Source of the DNA: Pseudomonadota bacterium
GTDB lineage: Bacteria; Pseudomonadota; Alphaproteobacteria; Acetobacterales; Acetobacteraceae
Assembly: GCA_021798575.1 (NCBI GenBank)
Contig: JAJZGI010000001.1
Coordinates: 1 to 64,000, forward strand
Reading direction: 5' to 3'
DNA: 64,000 bases
Under the pieces are notes generated by a model, which was not told the origin of the DNA, did no database searches, and saw nothing but the letters and a program-made list of their open reading frames with translations. Below are positions 14,085-40,347 of this stretch, one piece after another. Made by a program: the position numbers and the translations under genes. Position 1 is the stretch's first letter, and every line of letters begins with the position of its first letter.

Positions 14085-14093
14085 GGGGCAACG

Positions 14094-14540: not shown

Positions 14541-14717
14541 CCCCAAAGATCGCAACCCGCGAGTCGATCAGCCAGTCGACGGATTCGCCGTCCGCCTGTC
14601 TTTCTACGCCAGAGCACTACTACGCCCAGACGCTTGTTGAACTGCCCCAATTGCTCCCCTTTCTAATCATCCCCGTTGCCGAGCGCCTTCTGCGATCGGC
14701 TCTGAACGGGGTCGATC

Positions 14718-16290: not shown

Positions 16291-16299
16291 GGCCGGGCA

Positions 16300-18735: not shown

Positions 18736-18738
18736 GCC

Positions 18739-19850: not shown

Positions 19851-19854
19851 CCCT

Positions 19855-21150: not shown

Positions 21151-21836
21151 GCATGTTCCGAAGACCATCGGTGCGCTACGGGCGCACCCCAGAGCCGGAG
21201 ACGCCCTACCAGAAGGCGGCCCAGGTCTGGGACGAGCGGATCGGTTCAGCCCGCGTCCAGGCGAAGAATTGGCGGTTCATGGCTTTCGGGTCACTGGTTC
21301 TAGCGGGCCTGCTCGCCGGCGGCCTGGTGTGGCAATCGGCGCGCGGCACCATCACGCCTTGGGTGGTGCAGGTCGACAAGCTCGGCCAAGCCCAGGCGAT
21401 CGCGCCGGCCAACGCCGATTATCAGCCGACCGATCCGCAGATCGCCTACCATCTGGCGCGCTTCATCGAGGATGTGCGCGGCCTGCCGGCCGACCCGATC
21501 ATCCTGAGGCAGCAGTGGCTGCGCGCCTACGATTTCACGACCGACCGCGGCGCGGTCGCGCTCAACGAATACGCGCGCACCAACGATCCCTTCGCCAATC
21601 TCGGCAAGATTCAAATCTCTGTCGAAGTCTCCAGTGTCATTCGCGCCTCGCCGGACTCGTTCCGTGTCGCCTGGATCCAGCGCCGATACGAAAACGGCAG
21701 TCTGAGCTCGACTGAACGCTGGACCGCGATCCTCTCCGTCGTGCTCCAGACCCCGCACGACGCCGACAAGCTGCGGAAGAACCCGCTCGGGGTCTACGTC
21801 AACGCCATCAACTGGTCGAAGGAGCTGGGGCAATGA
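21147..21836 (+). CDS. trbF: Conjugal transfer protein TrbF (VirB8-like)
   Basis: FRRPSVRYGRTPEPETPYQKAAQVWDERIGSARVQAKNWR. Confidence 0.94.
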   Translation: MSMFRRPSVRYGRTPEPETPYQKAAQVWDERIGSARVQAKNWRFMAFGSLVLAGLLAGGLVWQSARGTITPWVVQVDKLGQAQAIAPANADYQPTDPQIAYHLARFIEDVRGLPADPIILRQQWLRAYDFTTDRGAVALNEYARTNDPFANLGKIQISVEVSSVIRASPDSFRVAWIQRRYENGSLSSTERWTAILSVVLQTPHDADKLRKNPLGVYVNAINWSKELGQ

Positions 21837-22855
21837 AGCCACCAACCGTTCGCAATCCCGCTCTTACGGCTTTCCGCAGAACCGCAATTCCAGCTTTGCT
21901 GCTTTCCGCCTCTGCGCTCGCCGGCTGCTCTCATCTCCAAAAGCCGCCCGAAATCGCGCTTGACGATGTCGCGGCTCCTGCGGTGCTCCAGGTCGATCCG
22001 CCTGCGCCAGTGCAGGTCGTGGAGCTGCCCAAGCCCCTTCCACTTCCTGGTCAATTGAAGCCCATCCCTTCGGGCAAGGCGCCGCCCGAGCCGGGCGATC
22101 CAACGACGCGCGTCAATCAGGCCAATGCCGCCGCGCGCGTGCAGCCCGTGCGCGATGGCTTCATCAACGCCGTGCAGGTCTACCCTTTCTCCGGCGGCGC
22201 GCTCTACCAGGTCTACACGGCGCCCGGGCAGGTGACCGATGTCACCCTTCAGGAGGGCGAACAGCTCGTCGGATCGGGGCCGGTCGCCGCGGGTGATACC
22301 GTGCGCTGGATCATCGGTGACACAGAGAGCGGCGCGGGCGCCGCCAAACGTATCCACATCCTTGTGAAGCCGACGCGGCCCGATCTTCTGACCAACCTCG
22401 TCATCAACACCGATCGCCGGACCTACCTGCTGGAGCTCCGCTCGACGGCGGCGACCTACATGGCGTCGGTATCCTGGCAGTATCCGCAGGATCAGCTGAT
22501 CGCGCTTCGGCGCCAGAACACCACAGCGGCGACCGCAGCACCGATCGACGTTGGCGTAGACGTCTCGAAGCTCCGATTCCGATACCAGATCACCGGGGAC
22601 AATCCGTCGTGGCGACCGCTATCGGCTTTCGATGACGGCTCGAAGGTCTATATCGAAATGCCGCGCGGTCTCGCCCAGGGCGAGGCGCCGCCGCTCTTCG
22701 TGATCGGCCCCGAGGGCGACGGCCAGCTCGTCAATTATCGCGTCCGCCAGAACTACTACATCGTCGATCGTCTGTTCGCCGCCGCCGAGCTTCGGTTGGG
22801 CGGCGACCACCAGCAGACCGTCCGCATCTCCCGAACTGACGGGAGGCAGCGGTGA
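21833..22855 (+). CDS. trbG: Conjugal transfer protein TrbG (VirB9-like)
   Basis: Lipoprotein-like LAGCSH; NLVINTDRRTYLLELRSTAATYMASVSWQYP. Confidence 0.94.
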   Translation: MKPPTVRNPALTAFRRTAIPALLLSASALAGCSHLQKPPEIALDDVAAPAVLQVDPPAPVQVVELPKPLPLPGQLKPIPSGKAPPEPGDPTTRVNQANAAARVQPVRDGFINAVQVYPFSGGALYQVYTAPGQVTDVTLQEGEQLVGSGPVAAGDTVRWIIGDTESGAGAAKRIHILVKPTRPDLLTNLVINTDRRTYLLELRSTAATYMASVSWQYPQDQLIALRRQNTTAATAAPIDVGVDVSKLRFRYQITGDNPSWRPLSAFDDGSKVYIEMPRGLAQGEAPPLFVIGPEGDGQLVNYRVRQNYYIVDRLFAAAELRLGGDHQQTVRISRTDGRQR

Positions 22856-24066
22856 GCGAGAACGGGCAAGAGGAAGCCCCTCCCGAACCGGAACGCCTGC
22901 GAGAACCAACCGCGGCCTCTCTGCGGCTCCGGTCCGAGCGACCGCGCGTGACGCGTTTGTCCCGCAAGGTGCTGGCCGGCGGCGCGGCCGTGGCGCTCAT
23001 CGCGGTCTCCGGCGCGGTGTTCTGGGCGCTGCAGAACAATCGCACCAAGACGGCGCCCGAGGAGCTCTACAGCACCGATCATCGCACCACGGCCGAGGGC
23101 CTTACCGGTCTGCCGCGCGACTATGCCGGTATTCCGCGGGCGGCGCCGCAACTCGGGCCGCCGCTACCCGGCGATCTCGGTCGGCCCATGCTCAACGCCG
23201 GCGGCGCGCCAAACACCGTGGTTCCCACGGCGCCCGCCGTGGATCCCGAGGTGCAACGGCGCGCGCAGGAGATCGAGGCCGCGCGGCTTAGCCGCCTATT
23301 CGCCTCGACCAATATCCGCGAATTACCAGCCCTGACTCCTGCGCCCGCCGTTTCGCCAGATGCAAACGGTACGACCGGTCAGGCTTCCCAGCCGTCGACC
23401 GACGCGGCGTTCGCGCAGAACGGCCAGGACCGCAAACTCGCCTTCGTCAACGGCTCCGTCGATCGACGCACCACCAGCCCCGATCGCCTGGCGGCGCCAG
23501 CCTCAGCTTTCGTCGTGCAGGCCGGGACAGTCATTCCCGGCGCACTGATCACCGGTATCCGGTCCGACCTCCCAGGTCAGATCACGGCTCAGGTCACGGA
23601 GAACGTCTATGACAGCCCGACCGGCAAGTCCCTGCTCATTCCGCAAGGGGCGCGGTTGATCGGAAACTACGACAGCCAGGTCTCCTTCGGTCAGTCGCGT
23701 GTCTTGCTTGTCTGGACGCGGCTCATCCTGCCCAGCGGGAAATCGATCGTCCTCGAACGCCAGCCCGGCGCGGACGCCGCTGGCTATTCAGGCCTTGAAG
23801 ACGAGGTCGACAACCATTGGGGCATGCTCTTCAAGGCGGCGATGCTCTCGACACTTCTGAGCGTGGGGTCAGAGGCGGGCACAGGCAGCAACGAAAACTC
23901 GCTCGTGCAGGCCTTGCGCCAGGGCGCGTCCCAGAGCTTCAACCAGACCGGCCAGCAAGTCGTCGGCCGCTATCTCAACATCCAGCCGACCCTTACGATC
24001 CGACCGGGATTTCCGGTGCGCGTGATCGTCAACCGAGACCTCGTGCTCGAACCCTATCAAGGCTGA
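22852..24066 (+). CDS. trbI: Conjugal transfer protein TrbI (VirB10-like)
   Basis: GTG start; VQAGTVIPGALITGIRSDLPGQITAQVTENVYDSPTGKSLLIPQGARLIGNYDSQVSFGQSRVLLVWTRLILP. Confidence 0.95.
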   Translation: MSENGQEEAPPEPERLREPTAASLRLRSERPRVTRLSRKVLAGGAAVALIAVSGAVFWALQNNRTKTAPEELYSTDHRTTAEGLTGLPRDYAGIPRAAPQLGPPLPGDLGRPMLNAGGAPNTVVPTAPAVDPEVQRRAQEIEAARLSRLFASTNIRELPALTPAPAVSPDANGTTGQASQPSTDAAFAQNGQDRKLAFVNGSVDRRTTSPDRLAAPASAFVVQAGTVIPGALITGIRSDLPGQITAQVTENVYDSPTGKSLLIPQGARLIGNYDSQVSFGQSRVLLVWTRLILPSGKSIVLERQPGADAAGYSGLEDEVDNHWGMLFKAAMLSTLLSVGSEAGTGSNENSLVQALRQGASQSFNQTGQQVVGRYLNIQPTLTIRPGFPVRVIVNRDLVLEPYQG

Positions 24067-24077: not shown

Positions 24078-24353
24078 ATGGCCAAGCTGAAACTCGGCGC
24101 GATCGCCGATGACAGACCGATCAAGCTGACCGTGGAACTGCCCGCGGCCGTCCACCGGGATCTGACCGCCTATGCCGAGGCTTTGGGCCGCGAGACCGGG
24201 CAGCCAGCCATCGAACCGACGAAGCTGATCGCGCCCATGCTGGCGCGCTTCATCGCCGGTGATCGGGCATTCGCCAAGGCCCGCAAAATTAGGACGCCAG
24301 CTCAATCGCCTTCGACCGCGGCGAGCTCGATGCCATCGACCGAGCAAGGCTGA
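24078..24353 (+). CDS. DUF2274 family protein
   Basis: MAKLKLGAIADDRPIKLTVELPAAVHRDLTAYAEALGRETGQPAIEPTKLIAPMLARFIAGDRAFAKA directly after trbI. Confidence 0.87.
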   Translation: MAKLKLGAIADDRPIKLTVELPAAVHRDLTAYAEALGRETGQPAIEPTKLIAPMLARFIAGDRAFAKARKIRTPAQSPSTAASSMPSTEQG

Positions 24354-25224
24354 GAAAACGCCGAAAAGCGGGGTTGTCGTTGCCCGGTAGCCAGACGGCG
24401 CTGTAGGACAAAATATCATCGGTGGAGGCGAGCGGCAGGAAGACGACGTCGGGATAGCGGGTTCCGATGCCGGCCTCACTGGCGAGCGTGATGCCAAGGC
24501 CAATGGCGACCAGATGCATCAACGTCTCCCGGCCGACACCATGGCGCTCGACCGAGGGACTACCCCCGAGTTCAACCACCCGTCGGACGATATAGTCGTG
24601 GACCTCGGGGCCTGGCGCGTCCCGGCTAACGATAAAGCGCTCCTCCTTCAAAGATGCCCAGTCAACCGCTTCGCCCCGGGCAAGGGCATGCCATGTCGGC
24701 AAGGCCGCATAGACCCGGGCCTTCCAAAGGACTGCCGTATCGCAATGCGACGCGGTCGGCGCGCCGGTGACGAATGCGACGTCGAGCTGCCGCTCAGTGA
24801 TCCGGGCGAGATGCTCGCTCGCCGAGCCTTCGACCAGCTCGATCGCAATGGCGGGGTTGTAGCAATGATAGTGGCCAAGGACGTCGCGCATGAACCCGCC
24901 GGAGACGGAAGACAGAATGCCGATCCGAAGCACGCCTTCCGCACCTCGCCCGGCGCTGGCAGCCGCTTTCACGGCATGGTCGATCTCGGAAAGCGCTGGC
25001 CTGGCCCGCTCAAGAAATCGCCGACCCGCCTCGGTTAGCCGCACGCCGGTGGACTCTCGCTCAAACAGGGACACGCCGAGCGCGTCTTCTAGCGCCCTGA
25101 CGCGTCGGCTGACCGCAGATTGCCGAACACCGAGCACCTGCGCCGCCCGGCTGAAACTGAGATGCTCAGCGACCAGCAGGGCCTGAGAAACAGAAACAAG
25201 ATTGATCACGCACCTGGCCTCCAC
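24289..25224 (-). CDS. LysR-family transcriptional regulator
   Basis: ALLVAEHLSFSRAAQVLGVRQSAVSRRVRALEDALGVSLFERESTGVRLTEAGRRFLERAR; 3' end overlaps DUF2274 convergently. Confidence 0.93.
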   Translation of the reverse strand: MEARCVINLVSVSQALLVAEHLSFSRAAQVLGVRQSAVSRRVRALEDALGVSLFERESTGVRLTEAGRRFLERARPALSEIDHAVKAAASAGRGAEGVLRIGILSSVSGGFMRDVLGHYHCYNPAIAIELVEGSASEHLARITERQLDVAFVTGAPTASHCDTAVLWKARVYAALPTWHALARGEAVDWASLKEERFIVSRDAPGPEVHDYIVRRVVELGGSPSVERHGVGRETLMHLVAIGLGITLASEAGIGTRYPDVVFLPLASTDDILSYSAVWLPGNDNPAFRRFLSLARSMASSSPRSKAIELAS

Positions 25225-25395: not shown

Positions 25396-28300
25396 TCAAG
25401 TGTGTCCCATCAGGTCATCGACCTTGGTCGCCTTGATGTATCGGGCCGGATTCTTGTCCACCGCCAGCGCCTTGAAGTGCGCTTCACCGCAGGCAATCTT
25501 CGCCGCTTCCTGGTCGCGCAGGTCATCGACAAACAGGCTGCCCTTGGTCTCCACGACGAAATACAACCGTTCTTCGCCGCTGACCTCAACCAGCACCGCC
25601 CAGTCAGGATTATAGGTGCCCAGCGGAGTCGGCACTTTGAACCAACCTGGCAGCTTGGCGTAGATCTTCACCGCCTCGTTTTTCTCAAGCTGTTCGGCGA
25701 AGGTGCGCTCGACGCCGCCAGAGTCATAAATCACGTGCTCGAACACGGACTTCTGCGCGTCCTTCAGCATGTTGCGCAGATATCCCGTCAGCTCTTCCTG
25801 CTGGAAAAGCTCCTGCGCGTAATACTGGTCTTCACCGATCCGCTGGTATTTGATGCCGTCAACAACAGCCAGCCGCTTGGTCCGATTGATCACCTCGCCC
25901 GCGATCTCGATGAACGCCTGCGGGTTACGCTTAAAGTCCGTCAAACGGCCGCACTCGGTCAAAATGCGGACCAGGCTTTTGCGCGTGAGCTGCGTCCGGT
26001 CCTGAAGATCGGTGAGCACGTCCGGGAGGACGATGTCGCCTTCCTCGATCGTCACGATCGTTCCGCTATCCTTGTCGTGCTCCTTGGCCAGAACGCCGCC
26101 CTGACCAATGGAAAGATCGGCCTTTCTGATCCGCACGCGCGCCTTCGACACGGGCGGGCCGTTGGCGATGGCCTTCGCGCAATCCACTAGCAGCTTCTCG
26201 TTATCGAAGTGAACGCGATAGGTCGTCTTGTGCTTGATCCGATCCCACAGCGCCTGGAACTCGGCGCTTTCCAGAATGGCCTGCCGCGTTTTGACGACCA
26301 CACGCTCATCGGCATTCTTGATATCCAGCTTGCCAGCCACCTTCTTCAGGACGTCGCGCACCGATGCCAGATGCGGCGCCAGCGCCGGCGGCAGAGCGAA
26401 AGAGCCATCCTTCAGCGCGGTGCGAAGGGTGTCCTGCACCTTGCCTTTCGCGTCCACGAACCCCTGCGACTTCAGATGGTCGAAGATCGCCGCTGACTCC
26501 TCGAAGCCGAGCATGCCGGTCGAACCGTCGGCCTTGACGACCGGGATGGCCGCGAACTGATGCTTCTCGACGATGCCGAACTTGATCCCGGTATCCTTCT
26601 CGATTTCCTTCTGCAGGTTTTCGGCGAACTCCTCGTAGCTCTCGGTGGCGATCACGGTCAGCGTGTTGATGTCGAAGCCGCGCAGGCGCTCGCCCTTCTG
26701 ATTGACGCAAAGCCGCAGCCCGCGGCCAATCGTCTGGCGACGCTCGCGTTCAGTTCCGATTTCGCGCAGAGCGCAAATCTGGAAGACGTTGGGATTGTCC
26801 CAGCCTTCCTTCAGCGCCGAGTGGGAGAAGATGAACTTCAGCTTGGTCTCGAAGCCGAGGAGCTTCTCCTTGTCCTTCATGATCAGGTTGTAGGCGCGCT
26901 CCGCGTTGTCGCGGGAGACCTGATTGTTGTCGGCCGTGTCGGTCCAGCGCCTGGCCTTGTCGATCGAGAAATAGCCGTCGTGGACCTCTTCGGCCTCGGA
27001 CGTCAGATCGACCTCCTTGAACAGGCTGACAAACTCGGGAAGTTTCGCCGCGCGCCGGTACTCTTCCTCGAAAATCCGGGCGTATTTGCCCTTTACGGGA
27101 TTCCCGTCGGCGTCATAGGACCGGTAGTGCTCGACCGCGTCGATGAAGAACAGGCTGAGCACCTTAACGCCAAGCGGCGCGAGGCGCTTTTCCTTTTCGA
27201 GATGCTCGTGGATTGTCCGGCGCAGCATCAGCCGCTTCAGCGCATCCGCGTCCACGTCGCCCACGGCCTGGCCGGGCTGGAGAAACGTCTCGCTGCCAGG
27301 CAGCTTCACTTCCAAAAGTTGGTTGTCACGCCCAGCGCGGATCTCGCCGATCCGGCAGTCGGCGTAGATAGCCCGCTTGGTCAGTTCCTCCAGGTCATCG
27401 CCATCTTGAACGACAACTTCCTTGCGGCGAACCTGCTTGCCCTCAAGGACGTCGATTTCAACGCGCGCCGTCACCGGCCCCTTGCCGTTGCTCGCCGAGA
27501 CGAAACGGACATAGGCCTTGTTGTGACCGCCCTCGACTTCGAGCGAGGCGACCTCGATCTGCTTGACCAGCTTGCGCTCATAGGCGTCGACGGCGTCCAG
27601 GCGGAACACCATGTGGTGCTTGTCGACATGGGTCGCCGAGTAGCGCAGCGTGCAGAGCGGGTTCATCTCTCCCAGCGCGTTCTTGCCGGCGCCCGACAGA
27701 CCGCCATCGACGCTTTGAGGTTCATCGACGATCAGGATCGGCCGGGTCGCGCGGATCAGATCGATCGGCCGCTCGCCGCCCGTCTTCTCGCTGTCCTTGT
27801 AAAGGTTGTTGACGTCCTTCTTGTTGATGGCGCCGACGGTCACGACCATGACCTGGATGTTCGGGCTGGTGGCGAAATTGCGCACCTGTCCGAGCTTCGC
27901 GGAATCATAGAGGAAATAGTCGAAGGGCTGGCCGGAGTAGAGGCCCTTGAAATGCTCCTCGGTGATCTGGAGAGTCTTGTAGACGCCTTCCTTGATCGCG
28001 ACCGAAGGCACGACGATGACGAACTTGGTGAACCCATACAGTTTGTTCAGCTCGAAGACCGTCCTTAGGTAGACGTAGGTTTTGCCCGTGCCCGTCTCCA
28101 TCTCGACCGTGAAATCACCGGAGGTCAGCGCCGTTGACGGAGCGAGGCCGTTCCGGAGCTGAATGTCCTTCAGGTTGGCGATGATCTCGTCGTCTAGCAG
28201 GGTCAGCCGGTTGCCGATGCCGAGTTCGCTCTCGACGAGGCCCAGCTCCCCTTGCACACCAAGGAAGCCGCCGAGATCGAGGCTCGGCTGTCCCGCCCGG

Positions 28301-28425
28301 TCCACCATCGGACGGCGCGTCACGGTGAATTCGGTGCGGTTGATCTCCTGGCCGCGAAACAGGTCGGCGACGGATTCAACGGCGAGCTTCTGGTAATCGA
28401 GATCCGGCTCGAAGTGCAGTTTCAT
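25396..28425 (-). CDS. Type III restriction enzyme Res-like helicase/nuclease
   Basis: 1009 aa; EMETGTGKTYVYLRTVFELN; RPILIVDEPQSVDGG; KEGWDNPNVFQICAL; C-terminal NPDWAVLVEVSGEERLYFVVETKGS (PD-(D/E)xK-like). Confidence 0.92.
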   Translation of the reverse strand: MKLHFEPDLDYQKLAVESVADLFRGQEINRTEFTVTRRPMVDRAGQPSLDLGGFLGVQGELGLVESELGIGNRLTLLDDEIIANLKDIQLRNGLAPSTALTSGDFTVEMETGTGKTYVYLRTVFELNKLYGFTKFVIVVPSVAIKEGVYKTLQITEEHFKGLYSGQPFDYFLYDSAKLGQVRNFATSPNIQVMVVTVGAINKKDVNNLYKDSEKTGGERPIDLIRATRPILIVDEPQSVDGGLSGAGKNALGEMNPLCTLRYSATHVDKHHMVFRLDAVDAYERKLVKQIEVASLEVEGGHNKAYVRFVSASNGKGPVTARVEIDVLEGKQVRRKEVVVQDGDDLEELTKRAIYADCRIGEIRAGRDNQLLEVKLPGSETFLQPGQAVGDVDADALKRLMLRRTIHEHLEKEKRLAPLGVKVLSLFFIDAVEHYRSYDADGNPVKGKYARIFEEEYRRAAKLPEFVSLFKEVDLTSEAEEVHDGYFSIDKARRWTDTADNNQVSRDNAERAYNLIMKDKEKLLGFETKLKFIFSHSALKEGWDNPNVFQICALREIGTERERRQTIGRGLRLCVNQKGERLRGFDINTLTVIATESYEEFAENLQKEIEKDTGIKFGIVEKHQFAAIPVVKADGSTGMLGFEESAAIFDHLKSQGFVDAKGKVQDTLRTALKDGSFALPPALAPHLASVRDVLKKVAGKLDIKNADERVVVKTRQAILESAEFQALWDRIKHKTTYRVHFDNEKLLVDCAKAIANGPPVSKARVRIRKADLSIGQGGVLAKEHDKDSGTIVTIEEGDIVLPDVLTDLQDRTQLTRKSLVRILTECGRLTDFKRNPQAFIEIAGEVINRTKRLAVVDGIKYQRIGEDQYYAQELFQQEELTGYLRNMLKDAQKSVFEHVIYDSGGVERTFAEQLEKNEAVKIYAKLPGWFKVPTPLGTYNPDWAVLVEVSGEERLYFVVETKGSLFVDDLRDQEAAKIACGEAHFKALAVDKNPARYIKATKVDDLMGHT

Positions 28426-28435
28426 CGAACCCTCC

Positions 28436-30490
28436 TCACAGGCTGCGAACGTCTGAAATGCCGTTCTGACTCAGGATCGCCGCCATGTTGGTTTTGGCGA
28501 TGTCGTCGGCGAATCCGGAATCCTTGAACACCACGCGGGTATCGACGGCGGGCGCCATCTCCTTGATCCACGAGACGATGCCGGCGCTCAAGGGCTCGAT
28601 GATGTCCTTGGTCAATTCGTCGGCAAGACATGCGATTAGTGCGCCGCCGCCAATAGAATGGACGGTCTTGTTGGCAATCAACTTTGTCTCGATGGGCACG
28701 CAAAGATCGAGACCCAATTTGAGCAGCAGCTCATAGAGGACGTCCTGCTCCTTGCGCCCTCGTACGAGATGCTCGGCGTTCTTCAGAAGGCTATTTTCCA
28801 GGTCGCCCCCGTCAGGCTCCCAAGCTCGTATATTAGACGACGCAAGCCTGAACACGCGGAAGCCGGTATCGCCAGAAAACCCCGGGTTGTCCGATCGGAC
28901 TTTCAGAGCGCTGCGTCGGAGACGCTCTTTGGTAATCTCGGCGATATTCGCCGGCTTGCCAATATCAGCACAGAACTGGGCTGCGACCTTTTGATCGGCT
29001 TGCTCCACATCCAGGGGCTCCGGCAACTGGACAAGAATATACCTTCGAGATGCAGACTTGCTTGCGTTCTCGGCCATAACCGCATGACCAGTGGTTCCGC
29101 TCCCAGCAAAGAAATCTAAGACAAGATCATCGGGCTCACACAAATAAGAAATTAGACGCGAGATATCATTTACCGGTTTTGGATTGTCAAAAACTCTCTG
29201 ACCATCAAAGAGCGCATTAAACTGATTGGCAGCTGTCTGCGCATAACTGTAGTGAACACTGATCATCACTTGATCAGAATTCTCAAACAAATTTGTTCTT
29301 ACGCGCGGGACCGTGGTTTCGTCTGGACCGAATACAACACGGCCTTTCTCGACCTCCTCCCAAAATCGTTCAGAGGTAGGGTAGCGCCATCCGCTGATAG
29401 GCAATTTACAAGCGCGCTTCGTCTCGGGATGAAGAACCTCGTATCTTGGTCCGTTTCCGCCGGGCCAGTTGATGTTTCCGTCGTCTCGATACGGACCCCT
29501 CTCATCGAACTTGCGAAATCTGGCAAGTGGTTGCCTTGGATCATCCTCATCGAACGTCGCATAAAATGCGAAAATTCCTTCTCTTATCTTCTCCCAATCC
29601 GAACCGTATAAATTCTTTAGACGCTCGAACTCTTCTTTTAATTCTTCAACGCCCTCCTTTTCACCTCGAAAAATGATCTTTTGATCAGAAAGTTTTTGTT
29701 CATTACGTACGTAAATGCACATATATTCGTGACCGACAGAAAAATACTTTGCGTCGTTCTTTCTATTTCTATCGAAAACGAGAGTAGCCAAAAAGTTTTC
29801 CTCTCCGAAGACATCATCTAGAAGCCGCCGAACATTTGGAAATTCCACGTCATCGACGCTCACGATAATAATTCCATCTTCGCGAAGCAGGTTCCGGGCT
29901 AACTTGAATCGTGGATAGGCCATATTGAGCCAATCCGTATGAAAACGGCCCGACGCCTCTGTATTTGATGATATTTTGCGGCCACCCTCAAGTTGACCTG
30001 TCAGTTCCAGATAGTTTTTAATATTGTCTCGAAAATCGTCACGATAGACGAAGTCTTTTCCGGTGTTGTAAGGTGGATCGATATATATAAGCTTCACCTT
30101 GCCCGAATAACTCTTCTGCAGTAACTTTAGAACCTCGAGATTGTCACCTTCGATCATTAGGTTGTGAGTCGTTTCCCAATCGACGCTTTCGTCGGGGCAC
30201 GGCAGTAGCGTACCGGTCGAAGGTGTCAGGGCGATCTGCCGCGCGCGCCGTTTGCCGTGCCAGTTGAGCCCGTACTTCTCATCGCGCTCGTCCACGGCGC
30301 CGCCGAGGAGACCCTTCAGCACTTCGAAGTCGATCTTGCCTTCTGCAAACGCGTCCGGAAACAGCGCCTTCAGCGCATCGATGTTGCCCGCCACAATGTC
30401 GGCGCTCTTCGTCTCGGGGCTTTCGGCGTCAAGCTTCTTCATGATCGGTTCCAACTCAAGCTGGGGCAAATCCGTGGCCGCGGCGATCAC
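28436..30490 (-). CDS. Type III (beta-class) DNA methyltransferase Mod
   Basis: LIYIDPPYNTGKDFVY precedes DLVLDFFAGSGTTGHAVMAEN. Confidence 0.92.
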   Translation of the reverse strand: MIAAATDLPQLELEPIMKKLDAESPETKSADIVAGNIDALKALFPDAFAEGKIDFEVLKGLLGGAVDERDEKYGLNWHGKRRARQIALTPSTGTLLPCPDESVDWETTHNLMIEGDNLEVLKLLQKSYSGKVKLIYIDPPYNTGKDFVYRDDFRDNIKNYLELTGQLEGGRKISSNTEASGRFHTDWLNMAYPRFKLARNLLREDGIIIVSVDDVEFPNVRRLLDDVFGEENFLATLVFDRNRKNDAKYFSVGHEYMCIYVRNEQKLSDQKIIFRGEKEGVEELKEEFERLKNLYGSDWEKIREGIFAFYATFDEDDPRQPLARFRKFDERGPYRDDGNINWPGGNGPRYEVLHPETKRACKLPISGWRYPTSERFWEEVEKGRVVFGPDETTVPRVRTNLFENSDQVMISVHYSYAQTAANQFNALFDGQRVFDNPKPVNDISRLISYLCEPDDLVLDFFAGSGTTGHAVMAENASKSASRRYILVQLPEPLDVEQADQKVAAQFCADIGKPANIAEITKERLRRSALKVRSDNPGFSGDTGFRVFRLASSNIRAWEPDGGDLENSLLKNAEHLVRGRKEQDVLYELLLKLGLDLCVPIETKLIANKTVHSIGGGALIACLADELTKDIIEPLSAGIVSWIKEMAPAVDTRVVFKDSGFADDIAKTNMAAILSQNGISDVRSL

Positions 30491-32436
30491 GCCGCTTCCA
30501 GGTGCAGAATTTCAGTTTCGACGTAGGTGCGGAAATCCGCCGAGGAGGTGAAGCAGCGGAAGCCCGCTCCACTCGCCAGGGCGAGGATATCCGCGCTCTC
30601 ATTCAGCAACACGGCAACCGGAGCGCTGAGCCCCGCCTGAAGGCCCTCGGGCCAGGCGAGATCAAACAGAGCCTTCTGCGCGCCGGTAGCGGGGTCCGCG
30701 TAGTCAAACCCAATCTGTCCGCGTGGCAGGCCCTGGCCTTCAACCCAATCATTGAGCGATTCCAGCTCGGCTTCTTCAACCTCGCTGGTGATGCCGCCTA
30801 TCATCGGCGCTTCCGCTTCGATCACTGGAGCGGCCTTGCCCATCCAGCGCGTGTCGCCGTGGAGCAATTCTTCGAAGCGACGGTTCGCCTCCGCCGCGAG
30901 CAAGGCCTTCCGAGCTTCGAGAAAATCGAGGTAGCGATCGATTTTCCAGAGCGCCGGATCGGTGGGGATCCACTGAGACGCCAGCGCGCCCGGATGCTTC
31001 GCCTCGATCTCCGGGAAATAGGCCTCCGGCAGCCGATCGCTGATGTTGAGGTTGGTGTCCTTGGTCAGGAAGCAGAAATTCGCCAGAGCGTTCACGTCGG
31101 GGCGACGGTGCTTCAGCTTGTAGAGCTGCGCCTTGGGGAAGATGTGATGCACCTCCAGGCGGCTCATCTTCCCGAGCAGACTGGCCCTGAGCGGCAGCCC
31201 GGTCCCCCAGTCCCGCGCCTCACCCATACGCGTCAGCATATAGAGCACCGGATAAAACCGGGCACCGAGACTCCACCCAGTGAAATGACCGGCTTCGACG
31301 CGCAGTCCGCCGTGCCAAAGCCGCAGTTGCTCCAGCAGCGTATCTAGGCCGCCTTTCGGCCCTTCGAGCGCCGCCAGATCCTGATCGATAAAGCTCTCCG
31401 TCGAACCGGAAAACCGTCCCCACATGCCGGCCTGGGCGAACCAGAAGAGCAGCTTGTCCCGCTCTTTCGCGTCCAGCGAGCCCTTGTTCTTGTCCAAGTA
31501 GCGGACCATCACCGGCACGCCGAAGCGGCCGAAGAACACCTGGTCATGATCGAGCCCGAGGCGTCCGGCGATCAGGTTCAAAGACGCATCGATGTGCTTG
31601 TTGGCGCGCTTCAGCCCATCCTGGATATCGAGCGCGCCCTTGTCGTGCAGGTAGCTGAACTTGGCCTCGCCAGTGAGCACGGTGTTCACCGAACGCAGAA
31701 GCCAATCGAGGTTGAACTGATACCCGGCGGCGGTCCATTCCTTCAGCTTGGCCTTCATGGAGTCGCGGGCTTCCGGCCACTCGGCGCAGATTTTCGCAAG
31801 CGCCAGATCGCCCTTCGACAGTTTGGTGCCGCCGCTGTTCACGCGGTTGAAGATGTCGACCACGACGTCCAGGGTCTTGTCCTGTCCGGTCACCTCTTCG
31901 ATATGCAAATCGATCTCCGTCACGCCGAGCAGCGCGCCGAGCCGGCCGACATAGGCGCCGACATTCGCCACATGAGCGGGGTCAGCCGAGAGCTGCGCGA
32001 TCAGCGCACCCAGGCCTGCGTTCCCAGCCTTCATCAAGCTGGTGACGTCGATCCACAGCGGATCGTCTTGCATTTTCACCGGCTGGTAGAACGCGAAGGT
32101 CTCGGTCCCGAGGTGAAACCGGAGCCCACTAAAGGCCTGCGCATTGCCGTCGAAGAACTTCGGGGGATGGCCCCGCACGACACCATAGAGCGAGGTCATG
32201 CGTTGCTGCCCGTCGAGCAACAGCTTGACGATCCCCGCGGCAAGCGGCCCGTCGCCTCGATGCGCCGCTGTCTTCGCTTCGGTCGCCCACACCAACAGGC
32301 CGCCTACGGGATGGCGGCGATAAAGGGAGTCGAACAGGCCGCGGACCTGGTCGCGGTTCCAGACATAGCCCCGCTGAAATTCGGGCAGCGCCATATGTCC
32401 GCTGTCTATGTGATCCAGGATCGTCGAAATCTTCAT
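30487..32436 (-). CDS. DUF262 protein with HNH/DUF1524-like C-terminus (GmrSD-like)
   Basis: LPEFQRGYVWNRDQVRGLFDSLYRRHPVGGLLVW; KLLLDGQQRMTSLYGV (DGQQR); C-terminal EVHHIFPKAQL...NALANFCFLTKDTNLNISD. Confidence 0.88.
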   Translation of the reverse strand: MKISTILDHIDSGHMALPEFQRGYVWNRDQVRGLFDSLYRRHPVGGLLVWATEAKTAAHRGDGPLAAGIVKLLLDGQQRMTSLYGVVRGHPPKFFDGNAQAFSGLRFHLGTETFAFYQPVKMQDDPLWIDVTSLMKAGNAGLGALIAQLSADPAHVANVGAYVGRLGALLGVTEIDLHIEEVTGQDKTLDVVVDIFNRVNSGGTKLSKGDLALAKICAEWPEARDSMKAKLKEWTAAGYQFNLDWLLRSVNTVLTGEAKFSYLHDKGALDIQDGLKRANKHIDASLNLIAGRLGLDHDQVFFGRFGVPVMVRYLDKNKGSLDAKERDKLLFWFAQAGMWGRFSGSTESFIDQDLAALEGPKGGLDTLLEQLRLWHGGLRVEAGHFTGWSLGARFYPVLYMLTRMGEARDWGTGLPLRASLLGKMSRLEVHHIFPKAQLYKLKHRRPDVNALANFCFLTKDTNLNISDRLPEAYFPEIEAKHPGALASQWIPTDPALWKIDRYLDFLEARKALLAAEANRRFEELLHGDTRWMGKAAPVIEAEAPMIGGITSEVEEAELESLNDWVEGQGLPRGQIGFDYADPATGAQKALFDLAWPEGLQAGLSAPVAVLLNESADILALASGAGFRCFTSSADFRTYVETEILHLEAA

Positions 32437-33218
32437 GCGCTATCCCCCAGCATCATCTTCTTGTTCCGATCCATTGCGGTCTCTAGCGCTTTGATCTTCT
32501 GATTCAGATCTACTCGCTGGCTAATCTGTTTTGCTTTTGAAGCCTGCGTTCGCAGTTGTGCCGCTTCCCGCGCAAGCCGCGTATGTTCTCCAAGGGCCGT
32601 GCGACGGCGGTCAATAAGCGCGCCCTCGTCTTTTACCTCGTAGACGCCTGAAAGCCGTGCAGCCACCAACGCCTCGATCCGCGCGAGCCAGCCGTCGTAC
32701 ACGGCCGACAGATCGCGCGCTGGCTGACTCTTCAGCGCGATACTTTCCATGAAAGCGCGCTCGGCTACCGGCGGCGTGGCGGGGTCGATCTCGCTGGCGA
32801 CGACAACGCGCTCAACGACAATCTTGTCGCCCTCGTTCTGCGCCGCACGTTTGGGAGCGACCGAGACGGCGACGCCGCCAGGGCCGGTTGTGATCAGCAG
32901 CACCGGATACGGAATTGCGCGGTGGATCAGCTCGGTCAGGCGTGTAGCGCGGGCGTCCGGGCGGAACGTCGCGGCGATGACAGCAATTTCCGAATAGTCG
33001 TGAATTTCGTCTGTGAAGGCGGGAATGGCGATGGTGTTCGGCTTGAGCGCCGCGAGCCAATGGATCTCATCGACGCCGTCCTGAATTGCGCGCTTGTCGG
33101 CGGTCGTTGGCGCGCCTTGCTCGACCAGCATCTTCTTGGGCACGCGCGTATCAACCCGCGCTCGCGGGGGGAGATCGAGAGCGGCGACAATCGCGGCGAT
33201 CGCCGCCATCCCCGTCAT
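32433..33218 (-). CDS. DUF4391 family protein
   Basis: RVPKKMLVEQGAPTTADKRAIQDGVDEIHWLAALKPNTIAIPAFTDEIHDYSEIAVI...LTELIHRAIPYPVLLIT; sits between the helicase and DUF262 genes. Confidence 0.78.
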   Translation of the reverse strand: MTGMAAIAAIVAALDLPPRARVDTRVPKKMLVEQGAPTTADKRAIQDGVDEIHWLAALKPNTIAIPAFTDEIHDYSEIAVIAATFRPDARATRLTELIHRAIPYPVLLITTGPGGVAVSVAPKRAAQNEGDKIVVERVVVASEIDPATPPVAERAFMESIALKSQPARDLSAVYDGWLARIEALVAARLSGVYEVKDEGALIDRRRTALGEHTRLAREAAQLRTQASKAKQISQRVDLNQKIKALETAMDRNKKMMLGDSA

Positions 33219-36200
33219 GAAGCAGCACTCGTCGAGGGGGCAAAAGCGACCAGGAAGGCGACCACCTCGAAGTCGTTGATTCCGGCGAATTCGCCCTTCA
33301 TGGCGTGCGTGCCGCCCATCTGAAACAGGCTGGCGACTGCGCGCTCTTCGCGCTTGCCCACGAGGGTCCCGATGGCCCGGGCGAGCAACTTGCGATAGGG
33401 CTCCATGTCGCGGCCCGATCGGGTCGCTTTGTCGAAGCGCTTGTAGGCCTCCTGGTCAGGCTGATCGTGACCAAGGCTGAGCTTTTTCAAGCGGTCGAGC
33501 ACCTGCTTCGCCTGCGTATAGGGAAGCAGGACCTCTCCGTCATCGCCGACATGGACGACGTAGTGCGGCGCCAGCGGATAGCCGGGCTCCGCGACCGCGA
33601 GCGCCGCCTCCCCAACGGCCCTCAGACAGAAGATGACGCCAGGCGGAATCGGGTTCTCCCTGTCGCCCAGAGCCTCGGTAACTGCATACGTCCCGAGCGG
33701 TAACGCATCGAGGCGGCTTCGATTGGTTCGCAGAAACCCTGCAAGATCGATGCGAAAATCGTTGAGGGTGAGGTCCGCGATGGAGACGCCACTCGACAGA
33801 TCTTCAAGATCGATCACGGCGTCCTGTAGCTTCTGAAGCTGAGCGCGCCGGTACTCCAGGTCGTTCATCTCGTTGCCGGCCTGGAACTCGATGACGTTTT
33901 CCTCGCCCGTCGCCGACACGTCGAGAAGCATCATGCGTCCGCTGACACGGGATTCGAGGTCGAGATATTCGTCCAGCTCCATATTCGGCCAGAAGTTGAC
34001 CAACTGTATTTTCGAGTTCTGCGAGCCGATCCGGTCCACGCGCCCGAAGCGCTGGATGATGCGGACCGGGTTCCAGTGAATGTCGTAGTTGATGAGAAAG
34101 TCGCAGTCCTGGAGGTTCTGCCCCTCCGAGATGCAGTCGGTCGCGATCAGAAGATCGATTTCGCCTTCCGATGCGAGTTCGGCAGGACGTTCCTTGGAAC
34201 GTGGCGAGAAGGCGCTCAGGATGCCGCTCATGTCACCGCGGACGCCGGGCATCGTGGTTCGGTTGGAACCGGTGCCGCTGACGACGGCGCAGTGAACGCC
34301 AAGCGAGCCACGCGCCCATGTGGCAATGTCGCGATACAGGTAGTCTGCAGTGTCGGCGAAGGCCGTGAACAGCAGGATCTTCCGGTTGCCCGCATTTATC
34401 GGCGCACGCACCTTGTCGGCAATTATCCGCTTGAGCGCCGCCAGCTTCGCGTCACGGTCTGGCGTGACAAGGCGAGCGGCTGCCAGGAGTGCGCGAAGAC
34501 GGTCTCGATCTTCGACGAGGTCCTGGCGCCAGCGCACCCGGTCAACATCTTGCAGAAGCACTTTGACCTTCCGGCCCACCAGCAGCGCCTCGAAAGCCGG
34601 GTCATCCACATCTATATCGTCGATCGGCACCTCGTCGACGGAGTCGTCATGTGCATCGATCTTGGCGAGTAGGGCTTCGACGTCCCTGAGTTGACGTTCA
34701 ATGGTGAGCGCGAACGACGCGACCGAGCTCTCCATGCGCTTCAAGATGTTCACCCGCAGCAGGTGAATGAGGCTTTCTTCTCGATCGACCTGGCGGAAGA
34801 ACCGCTCGCCTCCACGAATTTTTGTGCTGTACTTCTCGTCGTAGGACGCCTGCTTATGGGGCAGCACGTAACGAAGCGGGGCGTATGCGCCGAGGGTCAG
34901 ACGACGAATTTCGTTGTTTATCTCGCGGATCGGACGGAATGCGCCGTCGAGGTCGACGTCAGCCTTGATATTCACTGGCGGAAGCCGATCGGGGAACTGG
35001 CCGGTCTCCGCTGTACCGTAATAACGCTGAACATGCTTTCGCGAACGGGCAATGGTGAGCATGTCGAGCAGCTTGAAATAGTCGAAGCCGAGCATATCCA
35101 TAAGGCGCGCGGGCCGCCGGTCGGCCTCAGCCAGATCAAGCCACCGGTTGAACTGACCTTGGGCCTTACGGATCGTGGCTTCGATGCTGGGGATGCCATA
35201 ACCGGCAAGAGCCACATCGTTCCCTTCCGTCACAAAGGCGATTTGATTCTTCAGGTCAGCGAGCCGGTTGTTGACAGGCGTCGCCGACAGCATCAACACC
35301 TTGGTCTTCACCCCGGACTGGATGATCCGCTTCATCAAATGGTCGTAGCGGGTATCCCGATCCTTATGAGTGGGCTTGTTCCGGAAGTTATGAGACTCGT
35401 CGATGACGACGAGATCGTAATTGCCCCAATTGACGTGTGAGAGATCGATATCGCCGGACAGACCACCATCCCGCGAAAGATCCGTGTGATTCAAAACATC
35501 GTAGTTCAGCCTGTCGGGCGCTAAGACGTTCCGACGGTCGTTGGCCTTATAAAGGGTCCAGTTGTCGCGAAGCCGTTTGGGACAGAGCACGAGGACGCGA
35601 TCATTGCGGAGCTCGTAATACTTGATGACGGCAAGAGCTTCGAAGGTTTTTCCGAGGCCGACACTGTCGGCGATTATGCAACCGCCGATGCGTTCAAGCT
35701 TGTCGATGGCGCCGGTCACGCCATCGCGTTGAAAGCGAAAAAGCTTCTTCCAAACTACCGTATCCCGAATACCAGTCGCGGACTTGATGATCCGCTCTTC
35801 ATCCAGCTCGTCGCCCAAATCCTTGAACATCTGATAGAGGATCTGGAAGTAGACGACCGATGGCGAACGCGGGGACGCCATATCTTCCAGAGCAGCAAGG
35901 AATGATGCCTTGGCCTCCGGTTCCGCGCGCAGATCATTCCAGTTCGACTCGAACCATTCAGCGTAGCTCGCAGCCTCGGAATCGACATCCGTCGCTTGCA
36001 CGAGGCCAAGCAGCCCGCCCGGAGTCAGCCCAAGACCTTCCGTTGTAAACGAGCAAGTGCCCATCATGGCCTTGCCTGGGGACGGGTTGCCACGAACGAA
36101 GATTAGCGATTGGGGCGGCGCCTTTCGCGCATTCCGGATTTCGGCCTTCTTGGCGATCCAGTCGGCGGCGGCACGAGCGAGCCACCGTCCTTGAAGTTGC

Positions 36201-36427
36201 CCCCTGAAGGTGATGTCACCGTCCCCACCGAGCAGCGACGTGGCGATTGAATTCGGCTCACCGAGCAGCAGCCGGCAACGATCGACGCGCTCAAGGGTGT
36301 CCTTGAGCTCGGCAAAAGCCCAAAGAGAAAACGAGGACGACACAAGATCAACACGCGCCCCTGGCGTCAGCCAACCGCGCAGAAGATCAACAGCTCGATC
36401 CGTTCCACTATTTCGAAGAAGCCTCAT
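33215..36427 (-). CDS. SNF2-type helicase with PLD-like N-terminus
   Basis: 1070 aa; [94 protein letters not shown]; N-terminal [14 protein letters not shown] lacks an obvious HxK. Confidence 0.92.
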   Translation of the reverse strand: [1070 protein letters not shown]

Positions 36428-36630
36428 CGACCATCACCGGGCAGACTGCTGGGCGGCGGGGATGGCTGATCTATTGGCCGTGGGTTTGCCTCGATGAACT
36501 GCCTGATGGCTTGGCGGATAACCCACGAGATGGAAGCATCTCTGGCCAGTGCAATTTCATTGAGCGTCCGATAGTCCTGCTCTTCCAGGCTCACGGTCAA
36601 CCGCGTTGCCTTCCGTGGACGCTCGTTCAT
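36424..36630 (-). CDS. Ribbon-helix-helix protein, first gene of the defence-like operon
   Basis: MNERPRKATRLTVSLEEQDYRTLNEIALARDASISWVIRQAIRQFIEANPRP; ATG at 36630 with GGGGAG RBS; 4-nt overlap with the helicase gene. Confidence 0.78.
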   Translation of the reverse strand: MNERPRKATRLTVSLEEQDYRTLNEIALARDASISWVIRQAIRQFIEANPRPIDQPSPPPSSLPGDGR

Positions 36631-36984
36631 GCCACTCCCCACGATTCCATGCCCAATCTTAGCCCCATGCTCATCAGACTTCAACGAAGTGATGCACTTT
36701 TCACCAGTTCGATTGTCCACGATGAACGCCTTGAGCGCCGGGCAATTCGAGATTGATATGGGTTTGGCGTCCAGGCGCTGTTGACGGCGCCGCCGCGCGT
36801 TCTCGCCCTGGATTGAGTGCCGAGACAACATTTTCGTCGGGAACCTACGGTTACTCAGCGCGGGCAACCCTTCCGATTCCTACGCCAGAACGCCCCACGG
36901 CCCTACGCTCCCAACTCAGCCCTTCCCATGGCCAGAGACTATCGGTTTCCATCGGCATCAGACGCCAAGCAAGGAGACCCCGTC

Positions 36985-37293
36985 ATGGCCACCATGTCCG
37001 AGCAATCCATCAAACGGACCATCCGCCGCAGCGAGCTGCGCCAGATCGTGCCGCTTGCCGACTCGACCATTTACGAGATGGAGCAACGCGGCGAATTCCC
37101 CCGCCGCTTTGCCCTCACGACCCGGTGCGTGGTGTGGGATCTCAGCGAAGTGGAAGCCTGGCTAACCGAGCGCCGACGGGCCACGGAAAGCGCCTCGACG
37201 CGGCGCGCGCCTCACCCGGACGTCCGCAAGCGGCGAAGCCGCCCCGTCAAAGCGCCGGGTCAGGCACCAGCATCGGCATCGACGGCGGAATGA
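36985..37293 (+). CDS. AlpA-family regulator / candidate excisionase
   Basis: TIRRSELRQIVPLADSTIYEMEQRGEFPRRFALTTRCVVWDLSEVEAWL; aaggag upstream; adjacent to the integrase. Confidence 0.88.
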   Translation: MATMSEQSIKRTIRRSELRQIVPLADSTIYEMEQRGEFPRRFALTTRCVVWDLSEVEAWLTERRRATESASTRRAPHPDVRKRRSRPVKAPGQAPASASTAE

Positions 37294-38515
37294 GAACCGG
37301 GAGATATTTTCGTCCCGCCACCCAGGCGTCGATGATATCCGCCCACTCCTGCATCATGTGCCGCCGCTGAGGTTCGTATTCCGCCTTGTTGTAGACGCCG
37401 CGAGACGACCGCCCGTCCTCATGCGCTAGGCACTTTTCGATCCAGTCACTGTTGAAGCCGATCTCGTTCAAAAGCGTGGAGCCGGTCCTGCGCAGGTCGT
37501 GAACGGTAAATGGCTCCAAGGGTAACCCCTCGGCTTTCGCGCGCTCCACAACGGCATACGTGATCCGATTGAACGTCGCCCGCGACATCGGGGCATCGGC
37601 GTCATAGCGGGACGGCAGCAAGTAGCGTGAATTCCCGGCACAGGTTTTCAGCGCGATCATGATGTCGAGGGTTTGCCGAGACAGATAGACGTTGTGGGCC
37701 TTGGACCTCTTCATCCGTTCTTTGGGGATGCTCCAGACGGCATTTTCGAAATCCACTTCGTCCCAGGTTGCGTCCTGCAGCTCGCTCTTGCGCACCATGG
37801 TGAGCAGGAACAGGCGCATCCCAAGTCGGATCGTCGGAAGCGTGGCCACATGTTCAAGCTGCTTGAGCATGATGCGTATCTCAGTCGGAGACAGCGATCG
37901 GTCCTTCGCCACAAAGGTGGCGATCGACGCCGGCCCGACTTCGTCGGCCGGATTGTCGACCTTCTCCCCGTGCAAAATCGCAAAGCCGTAAATCTGTTTG
38001 ACGATGTCGCGGACGTGGATGGCCGTCGCCGGCGCGCCCCGCTCGACGATCTTCGCGCAAATCGCACGCAGATCATCAGGCGTGATCTCGTGCAGAAGGC
38101 GATTTTTGCAGGTCGGGACCAACTCCCGTTCGAAAATGGCTCGGCGCATCGCACGAGTGCTGTCGGCCATCGTCGCCGTGGAAAGCCACCTTTCCCCAAA
38201 TTCGCCGAAGCTCTTCGCCTCTTTGATCCGCCGCTTGGCACGCTGCTTTTCGTGGGCGGGGGAATTGCCCTCCATGATCGAGCGGCGGGCATCGATCGTC
38301 ATCTCACGGGCGCGAGCGAGGGATAACTCGGCCGGACCGTACTGACCGAAAGTGACAGTCTCGCGCCTACCATTCAGCCGATAGTCGAGCCTGAAAGTGA
38401 CCGTTCCTGATGGGGCGACGACGACATACATGCCGTCGCGATCCGCCACCTTGTACGGTTTTTCCTTAGGTTTCAGGTTCTTAAGGGCCACGTCCGTCAG
38501 CATCGCTCTCACCAC
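37247..38515 (-). CDS. int: P4-type tyrosine recombinase (integrase)
   Basis: DUF4102-like N-terminus (LTDVALKNLKPKEKPYKVADRDGMYVVV); LTMVRKSEL, HDLRRTGSTLL and SRGVYNKAEY catalytic context. Confidence 0.93.
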   Translation of the reverse strand: MVRAMLTDVALKNLKPKEKPYKVADRDGMYVVVAPSGTVTFRLDYRLNGRRETVTFGQYGPAELSLARAREMTIDARRSIMEGNSPAHEKQRAKRRIKEAKSFGEFGERWLSTATMADSTRAMRRAIFERELVPTCKNRLLHEITPDDLRAICAKIVERGAPATAIHVRDIVKQIYGFAILHGEKVDNPADEVGPASIATFVAKDRSLSPTEIRIMLKQLEHVATLPTIRLGMRLFLLTMVRKSELQDATWDEVDFENAVWSIPKERMKRSKAHNVYLSRQTLDIMIALKTCAGNSRYLLPSRYDADAPMSRATFNRITYAVVERAKAEGLPLEPFTVHDLRRTGSTLLNEIGFNSDWIEKCLAHEDGRSSRGVYNKAEYEPQRRHMMQEWADIIDAWVAGRKYLPVLIPPSMPMLVPDPAL

Positions 38516-38523
38516 TGAGAAAA

Positions 38524-38709
38524 ATACCGTCAGGCCTTTTTTGACCGCACTATTTGATTTTTCCTCATTTTCATCAATGACTTATGAGGAAAAAAATACC
38601 GTCAAACGACCTCAACAGGTTGACGGTATCGCGAGTTTCGGACGTGAGCAAGAGGTGATGATACCGTCAGAGATGCCGTCAAATCGGAGCACTGCCTCCA
38701 AAATGACGG
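38524..38709. repeat. ATACCGTCA repeat cluster (candidate integrase/excisionase arm sites)
   Basis: ATACCGTCA at 38524-38532, 38596-38604, 38661-38669; inverted TGACGGTAT 38621-38629; variants ATGCCGTCA 38673-38681 and TGACGG 38704-38709. Confidence 0.7.
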
Positions 38710-38796
38710 CGATTGATCCTGACAGATATAATTATTTATTTCAGTGGGTTAGTGTGATTTTTCGATTGTTAGCGGAGGCCCCCGAAAGGCCCTAAA

Positions 38797-40347
38797 TCAT
38801 TCCCACTCGATCGTGCCGGGGGGTTTGCTTGTCAGGTCGTAGGTGACGCGGTTGATGCCGCGCACCTCGTTGACGATGCGGTTGGCGACGCGGGATAAGA
38901 ACGCCATCTCGAACGGGTAGATGTCGGCGGTCATGCCATCCGTGCTGGTGACGGCGCGCAGGGCGCAGACCTGGTCGTAGGTGCGGCCATCACCCATCAC
39001 GCCGACGGATTTGACCGGCAGCAGCACGGCGAAGGCCTGCCAGATGGAATCATACAGGCCGGCGGCGCGGATCTCCTCCAGGTAGATCGCATCGGCCTTT
39101 TGCAGGATGGCGACGGACTCCGCCGTGACGGCGCCCAGGATACGGATGGCGAGACCCGGGCCGGGGAATGGATGGCGGCCCACCATGTGCGCGGGCAGGC
39201 CGAGCTCCCGGCCCAGGGCGCGGACCTCGTCCTTAAACAGCTCCCGCAGGGGCTCGACCAGCCTGAGCTTCATGAAGTCCGGCAGGCCGCCGACATTATG
39301 GTGGGATTTGATGGTGACGCTGGGACCGCCGAGTGCGCTGACCGACTCGATGACGTCCGGGTAGAGCGTGCCCTGGGCCAGGAAATCCGCGCCGCCGAGT
39401 TTTTTGGCCTCCTCGTCGAAGACCTCGATGAACAGCCGGCCGATGGTTTTGCGCTTGGCCTCGGGGTCTGTGACGCCAGATAGCGCGCCCAGGAAGAGCG
39501 CCGATGCGTCCCGGTGGATGAGCTGGATGTTGAACTGGTCCCGGAAGATTTGCACGACCTCATCTGCCTCCCCCGCGCGGAGCAGGCCGTGGTCCACGAA
39601 GATGCAGACGAGCTGCTCGCCCACGGCCTCATGGATGAGGGCCGCGGCGACGGAGGAGTCGACGCCGCCGGAGAGGCCACAGATGACGCGCCCATTACCG
39701 ACCTGGGCGCGGATTTTGGCGATCTCAGAGGTGCGGAAGCCAGCCATCGTCCAGCCGCCGGACAGGCCGCAGACGCCATGGGTGAAGTTGCGGAGCAGTT
39801 GCGCGCCGTGCGGCGTGTGGACGACCTCCGGGTGGAACATGAGGCCGTAGAAGTGGCGGGAGTCGTCCGCGATGATGGCAAACGGCGCGCCGGGCGAGAC
39901 GGCGACGGTGCGAAAGCCGGGCGGTGGGGCGGAGATGTGGTCGCCGTGGCTCATCCAGACCTGCTCGCGCGCGCCCAGGTGCCAAAGGCCCTCGAACAAC
40001 GCGCAATCGGCCATGATCTCGACCTCGGCGCGGCCAAACTCCCGGATTTCAGCCCCCTTAACGTCGCCGCCCAACTGCGCGCACATGACCATCTGGCCGT
40101 AGCAGATGCCCAGCACGGGCACGCCCATGGAAAACGCGGATTCCGGGGCGCGGGGCGAGCCCGCATCCGCCACGCTGGCCGGGCCGCCCGAGAGGATGAT
40201 GCCGCGCGGCGCGAATTCGGCGATGCGCGTGGGCGCGGCGTTGAAGGGCAGGATCTCGCAGTAGACGCCCGATTCCCGCACGCGGCGGGCGATGAGCTGG
40301 GTGAGCTGGCTGCCGAAATCGAGGATCAGGATTTTTTCATCAAACAT
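38797..40347 (-). CDS. guaA: GMP synthase (glutamine-hydrolysing)
   Basis: [49 protein letters not shown]-terminal KPPGTIEWE. Confidence 0.98.

Follow-up and report, generated by a model that had tools for sequence, protein, structure and literature searches.

The operon at positions 25396 to 36630 of the stretch analyzed here, the first 64,000 nucleotides of contig JAJZGI010000001.1 from an Acetobacteraceae bacterium (assembly GCA_021798575.1; hereafter, the window), belongs to a widespread and apparently undescribed four-gene variant of type III restriction-modification (R-M). Descriptions of type III R-M usually feature only two genes, whereas here the methyltransferase gene mod and the endonuclease gene res are preceded by genes for a SNF2-type helicase and a DUF4391 protein in a fixed order. 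On balance, we lean toward the view that this is a four-gene type III R-M system carried on an integrative conjugative element (ICE), with a swappable regulator and two cargo slots, in which the helicase-DUF4391 pair serves as an accessory motor for Mod-Res.

All six minus-strand open reading frames that the initial annotation had combined into one operon are present where it placed them. The first encodes an RHH protein that is a likely regulator of the operon (36424..36630; RHH_1, 40 bits); the frame opens upstream at a TTG, but translation probably starts with the ATG at 36630 (MNERPRK...). It is followed by core gene 1, encoding a SNF2-type helicase/translocase with a PLD (HKD)-derived N-terminal domain (33215..36427; SNF2-rel_dom and Helicase_C), core gene 2, encoding the DUF4391 protein in a frame that overlaps that of the helicase (32433..33218; PF14335, 221 bits), and a gene for a GmrSD/BrxU-like DUF262 protein, which occupies a first cargo slot between DUF4391 and mod (30487..32436; GmrSD_N, 86 bits). 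Core gene 3 is the type III mod gene, with a GTG start (28436..30490; N6_N4_Mtase, and MTase_III at 696 bits), and core gene 4 is the type III res gene, encoding a helicase-endonuclease (25396..28425; ResIII and RE_endonuc, and REase_III at 1258 bits). The reported 4-nt overlaps at 36424-36427, 33215-33218, 32433-32436, and 30487-30490 are exact, as is the gap of 10 nt between mod and res.

To place this operon in context, DUF4391 loci were gathered from 399 genomes of Pseudomonadota (the phylum of the window), a collection of genome contigs, plasmids, phages, and viral contigs, and up to 20 kb around each locus was annotated using profiles derived from the proteins of the window and from their matches (L-numbers below are the labels of these loci). 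A DUF4391 match was present in 23 of the 399 sampled Pseudomonadota genomes (about 6%). The helicase, DUF4391, Mod, and Res were found together in 38 of 48 loci, and in all 38 the order, HKD/SNF2 helicase, DUF4391, Mod, and Res, and the strand were identical. Of the ten incomplete loci, nine run into a contig end on at least one side with missing genes; in L041 a contig edge lies within DUF4391, yet 9.6 kb downstream is devoid of mod and res, so the contig end is only a partial explanation. The core occurs in at least two classes of Pseudomonadota, in Rhodococcus (L034) and Persicobacter (L061, Bacteroidota), and on an archaeal plasmid (L060), and annotated records from Enterococcus, Lactococcus, Vibrio, Acinetobacter, E. 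coli plasmids, an archaeal plasmid, and the Erysipelothrix phage phi1605 display the same arrangement, as does a Desulforapulum record, but with no res annotated after mod. The recurrence of the four-gene order in several bacterial phyla and in an archaeon is far beyond what chance would produce. Close copies are rare in E. coli, where they are mostly plasmid-borne (10 of 5,426 genomes); one E. coli plasmid copy of the core is that on pRHB17-C02_4 (L062:3234-12562).

The linkage is tightest between the helicase and DUF4391. Their frames overlap or almost touch in nearly every locus, and inserts longer than 300 nt interrupt this junction in just 2 of 44 loci, as opposed to 19 of 43 for DUF4391 and Mod and 16 of 40 for Mod and Res. 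Pairwise protein distances are correlated as well, with r=0.96 for Res and the helicase, 0.93 for Res and DUF4391, and 0.84 for Mod and DUF4391, against a permutation maximum of 0.40. Helicase matches at E values below 1e-200 were present in 21 genomes, 20 of which also harbor DUF4391; in the lone exception (L114), the helicase lies beside a type IIG (Eco57I-like) enzyme. The composite system proposed in the initial annotation in place of plain type III R-M is thus upheld for the helicase and DUF4391, with their fixed order relative to Mod and Res in distant taxa, but not as a six-gene system: neighborhood analysis recovered the co-occurrence of the helicase, DUF4391, Mod, and Res, while DUF262 and RHH proved exchangeable.

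The assignment of Mod and Res to type III is clear. Both are homologous over most of their length to the EcoP15I subunits in 4zcf (E=3e-82 for Mod and E=1e-67 for Res), and, as in EcoP15I and EcoP1I, the motifs are intact and mod precedes res. Mod is a beta-class methyltransferase with the DPPY (residue 138) and FxGxG (FAGSG, residue 461) motifs, and Res combines superfamily 2 (SF2) helicase motifs (GTGKT, residue 112) with a C-terminal PD-(D/E)XK domain (PD...ETK, residues 940-961). These features are strong grounds for taking Res as the predicted cutter and Mod as the predicted self-marker, and the FAGSG and DPPY motifs suggest that the modification is probably N6-methyladenine (m6A). The EcoP15I and P1 systems differ in consisting of Mod and Res only, as opposed to the fixed upstream helicase and DUF4391 and the two cargo slots found here.

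The helicase appears to be a motor that has lost a nuclease. The window protein has the motifs GLGKT (residue 257), DESH (343), SATPVN (381), and QRFGRVDR (792), and Walker A, DESH, SATPVN, and QRxGRxDR are retained almost everywhere in the DUF4391-linked helicases. By contrast, the PLD label attached to this protein in the initial annotation has no Pfam support in the window helicase, and the nuclease that it implied is degenerate: the domain is visible only through homologs, and the catalytic H and K are gone, both from the window protein and from 36 of the 36 DUF4391-linked helicases covering the region, as is the HxK(x)4D motif of an active HKD/PLD nuclease. Two outgroups are HKD-intact, L114 (HGKLIHID...GSSNFT) and L115 (HAK...GSSNFT), and each of them matches Pfam PLDc_2 at 34 bits, whereas the window, L060, L062, and L064 proteins have no match to it. 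The N-terminal domains of the L114 and window helicases are homologous, since the two proteins are 40% identical over their full length. In L114 (6954-14237) the helicase lies next to the type IIG enzyme, and in L115 (6914-13804) the more distant helicase lies next to a type ISP enzyme; both helicases appear, from these neighbors, to be helicase partners of other R-M classes. A 234-amino acid open reading frame after the L114 helicase was considered as a replacement for DUF4391 and dismissed as an off-frame artifact, as the true frame runs into the type IIG gene. A PLD nuclease effector was likewise rejected, as every DUF4391-linked helicase has a degenerate motif. Res probably supplies the nuclease of the system and the helicase its ATP motor, and on our reading the PLD nuclease was no longer needed after this motor had begun to work with Res. 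The structure model of the helicase is poor (pLDDT 59, pTM 0.36), and its matches, RapA as the best neighbor along with a Sulfolobus SWI2/SNF2 protein and SauUSI, for this reason lend weak support only.

For DUF4391, the AlphaFold2 model is good (pLDDT 90.5, pTM 0.86) and consists of an alpha/beta domain to about residue 145 followed by a long helical hairpin. A search with the sequence profile found no solved relative, and among the open-access literature searched a single paper mentions DUF4391, as a domain enriched in non-permissive Actinomyces hosts of TM7x.

In contrast to the fixed core, the contents of the two internal junctions vary. Slot 1, between DUF4391 and Mod, holds DUF262/GmrSD genes in the window, L029, L030, and L033 and a DUF262 fragment in L028; elsewhere it contains unrelated GmrSD_N+C proteins (L044 and L061), HNH_2 proteins (L027 and L030), Zeta-toxin-like kinases (L036 and L039), DUF2130 (L046), the PADLOC candidate PDC-S46 (L055), a Schlafen AlbA_2 protein (L117), or Bro-N and DUF2971 proteins (L118). 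Slot 2, between Mod and Res, holds GGACT/AIG2 proteins (L029, L032, and L033), Fic (L036, L038, and L057), RhuM (L037, L038, and L047), PDC-M59A (L036), or a Schlafen AlbA_2 protein, tested against Pfam in L050 and with a gene of the same length in the same place in L052, although some inserts at this junction are insertion sequences (L040, L059, and L130). In the Lactococcus plasmid pUL021B (L127:9200-15764), a second methyltransferase fragment lies between mod and res and may reflect splitting or duplication of mod. In L035, Res is immediately followed by genes of the GajA and UvrD types that are known from Gabija. The regulator in front of the core is also variable, being RHH in the window group (L027, L029, L030, L032, and L033), HTH_17 in L116, and XRE-type in L126, with L118, L127, and L128 similar by eye; RHH is one of several exchangeable regulators.

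The DUF262 gene is cargo, as the content of slot 1 differs among the window (a full DUF262), L027 (an HNH gene), and L028 (a DUF262 remnant) despite closely similar cores. Its status as a core gene was accordingly rejected: most loci lack it and it is exchanged among close relatives, and the window type is confined in slot 1 to close alphaproteobacterial relatives. The protein has a DGQQR motif (residue 75) and a C-terminal HNH-type motif (HHIFP...N, residue 430), as do GmrSD and BrxU, although Pfam GmrSD_C gave no match in the window protein. Its only solved relatives are 7p9k and 7p9m, the former of which we take to be BrxU. Like these type IV enzymes, it is inserted inside another defense operon, the difference being that here the operon is type III R-M and DUF262 is one of several alternative cargoes. 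BrxU is described in BREX loci as covering phages with modified bases, and by analogy we have moderate confidence that the DUF262 protein may attack modified phage DNA.

The nearest precedent for a SNF2 gene beside type III R-M is that of the Eco86II type. Eco86II and BspHIV are N4-methylcytosine (m4C) type III systems with an extra helicase-like ATPase encoded 5' of mod, which occurs in over 500 genomes (PMC8259958, 2021). The likeness is that an extra SF2/SNF2 ATPase gene is consistently associated with the 5' side of mod and res; the differences are an m4C Mod and no DUF4391 there, as opposed to a FAGSG (m6A-like) Mod and a PLD-derived helicase N-terminus here. In the E. coli NCTC86 locus L125, which we infer from strain and gene order to be Eco86II itself, SNF2, Mod, and Res occur without DUF4391, and the 963-amino acid ATPase aligns with the window helicase only in the helicase motifs (about 30% over 170-180 residues). 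The window operon was accordingly not placed in this type, given this motif-level similarity and the presence of DUF4391 (and DUF262) before mod. Two other loci that lack DUF4391 have an HTH gene in front and an insert between SNF2 and Mod-Res, DUF262/DUF1524 on the E. coli STEC309 chromosome (L124:5252-15405) and Abi on a Salmonella plasmid (L123:6232-16247); because these inserts lie between the ATPase and mod, the slot habit is common to both architectures. About 250 of 5,426 E. coli genomes carry DNA resembling the Eco86II-type SNF2 gene.

We propose, with moderate confidence from sequence and gene arrangement, that the pair may act as an accessory motor for Mod-Res. Mod would methylate its own asymmetric motif, and Mod2Res would recognize unmodified motifs, after which Res, judging from its homology and intact motifs, would cut via its PD-(D/E)XK domain; such recognition by Mod2Res and cleavage by Res are known for EcoP15I. 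The helicase would use ATP to translocate along double-stranded DNA, with its PLD domain now serving as a non-catalytic module for binding DNA or protein, and DUF4391, as its gene coupling suggests, would tether the helicase to the Mod-Res complex or control the helicase for it. The pair would then probably travel along invading DNA, stripping it of bound proteins or uniting Res complexes, and raise restriction where diffusion of Mod2Res alone fails. The DUF262 protein would be a separate GmrSD-type modification-dependent nuclease directed against phages whose modified bases escape Mod-Res.

Several observations weigh against such a motor. Mod-Res of the same clade occur without the pair in L095, L098, L099, L101, L105, and L107, so the pair is not essential for cutting; the protein-distance correlations partly mirror host or shared element history; the DUF4391 model had no match in the PDB at E<=0.001, and its fold offers no functional hint; and Eco86II methylates without its extra ATPase, albeit a different one, which the active nuclease preparation also lacked (PMC8259958). 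That this ATPase is dispensable for cutting is also compatible with the main rival explanation, a role in control or self-protection, in which the pair would stall Res, dissolve stuck Mod2Res in the manner of RapA or Mot1, or delay restriction in a new host. The core is often carried by a mobile element (plasmid, phage, or ICE) that arrives in hosts lacking the modification, a small regulator often stands in front of it, and SNF2/RapA-like ATPases are remodelers, RapA itself being the best structural neighbor of the poor helicase model. Yet the same-clade type III systems manage without the pair, and the HKD-intact outgroups beside type IIG and ISP enzymes suggest that the ancestral role was in restriction, and we consider control or self-protection unlikely, if still worth serious attention. 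Those same-clade systems also indicate that the pair is an add-on depending on Mod-Res, not the reverse; on the Res tree, the pair-present or pair-absent label changes about ten times, with some labels resting on short contigs. An independent sensor or abortive module, triggered by Mod-Res or by its inhibition by phage, strikes us as improbable: toxin-like genes (Fic, Zeta-like kinases, and RhuM neighbors) are embedded in the same operons, but the pair has no recognizable effector, its PLD active site is dead, and it almost never occurs without Mod-Res, the helicases without DUF4391 being found only beside other R-M enzymes.

There is very little to recommend a plain type III R-M system with unrelated neighbors brought together by the chance of a defense island. 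Chance does hold for DUF262 and the other slot cargo, variable as they are between close relatives, but it is refuted for both the helicase and DUF4391 by their order, strand, overlap, and correlated divergence with Mod-Res across phyla. Least credible of all is a DISARM- or BREX-related system, an idea prompted by the combination of helicase, PLD, and methylase and by helicase motifs that score against the DrmD and BrxH models; these scores are far below the curated cut-offs (144 versus 610 bits for DrmD), and Mod and Res are genuine type III subunits. The hallmarks are absent: as the initial annotation had noted, the operon has no DrmB (DUF1998), PglZ, or BrxC, and it has no DrmC or DUF499 either. 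Membership in DISARM, whose expected set is the DrmA helicase, DrmB, the PLD protein DrmC, and DrmMI/MII, was rejected on the DrmD score and the lack of DrmB and DrmC, and membership in BREX or BREX-related systems on the lack of PglZ, BrxC, or a DUF499-type ATPase. What is shared with DISARM is a SNF2 helicase and a DNA methylase in one operon, whereas here the methylase is a type III Mod and the nuclease probably Res. The BREX-related type-2 BR systems (PMC12839542) similarly have an HKD-Swi2/Snf2 helicase fusion beside an N6-methyltransferase, but they include a DUF499 ATPase, DUF3780, and an HKD nuclease effector, none of which is found here, where the HKD is dead.

That the combination might already be catalogued under another name had been left open, and no exact match has emerged: PADLOC calls Mod and Res ordinary type III, has no model for DUF4391, and gives the helicase only a generic "C3a139 HKD+Snf2" match, and no name for the four-gene form was found in the defense-model libraries and open-access papers searched. 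The PADLOC models hence record a conserved four-gene form as ordinary type III R-M. Should the pair change type III restriction, for example, through motor-driven search or the cutting of single-site or blocked DNA, the system would count as an R-M subtype in its own right, equipped with slots into which back-up effectors can be plugged, a suggestion that we offer only tentatively. The arrangement makes it directly testable what use a second ATP motor is to Mod-Res, what purpose DUF4391 serves, and why internal exchange slots exist; with the E. coli plasmid copies, work in a laboratory strain would be simple. The slot contents provide a list of candidate defense genes.

The carrier of the operon is an ICE inserted at guaA, which we take to resemble the Tn4371 group. 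The operon is located between an integrase/AlpA pair at guaA and a trb-type conjugation cluster. The pair comprises an AlpA-type regulator/excisionase on the plus strand (36817..37293; Phage_AlpA, 48 bits) and a minus-strand tyrosine integrase (37247..38515; Phage_integrase) beside the 3' end of guaA (38797-40347). The conjugation cluster (10051-24066) encodes TrbI, CagX, VirB8, TrbL, and TrbE-like proteins, a TraG-like coupling protein, and a DUF3363 relaxase, and is followed by a LysR regulator (24289-25224). The window showed no direct repeat of the guaA end that would mark where the element stops on the left. The interval from the integrase start to guaA (38516-38800) contains several direct and inverted copies of ATACCGTCA, which are possible integrase arm-binding sites. 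In phage phi1605 (L064; 68326-88991 of the record), the core lies between two site-specific recombinase genes beside the mef(A)/msr(D) macrolide resistance genes, and its DUF4391 protein is annotated as a chemotaxis protein, which looks wrong. Elsewhere in the window, a HipA-like kinase with a HipA N-terminal domain is encoded at 260-1552.

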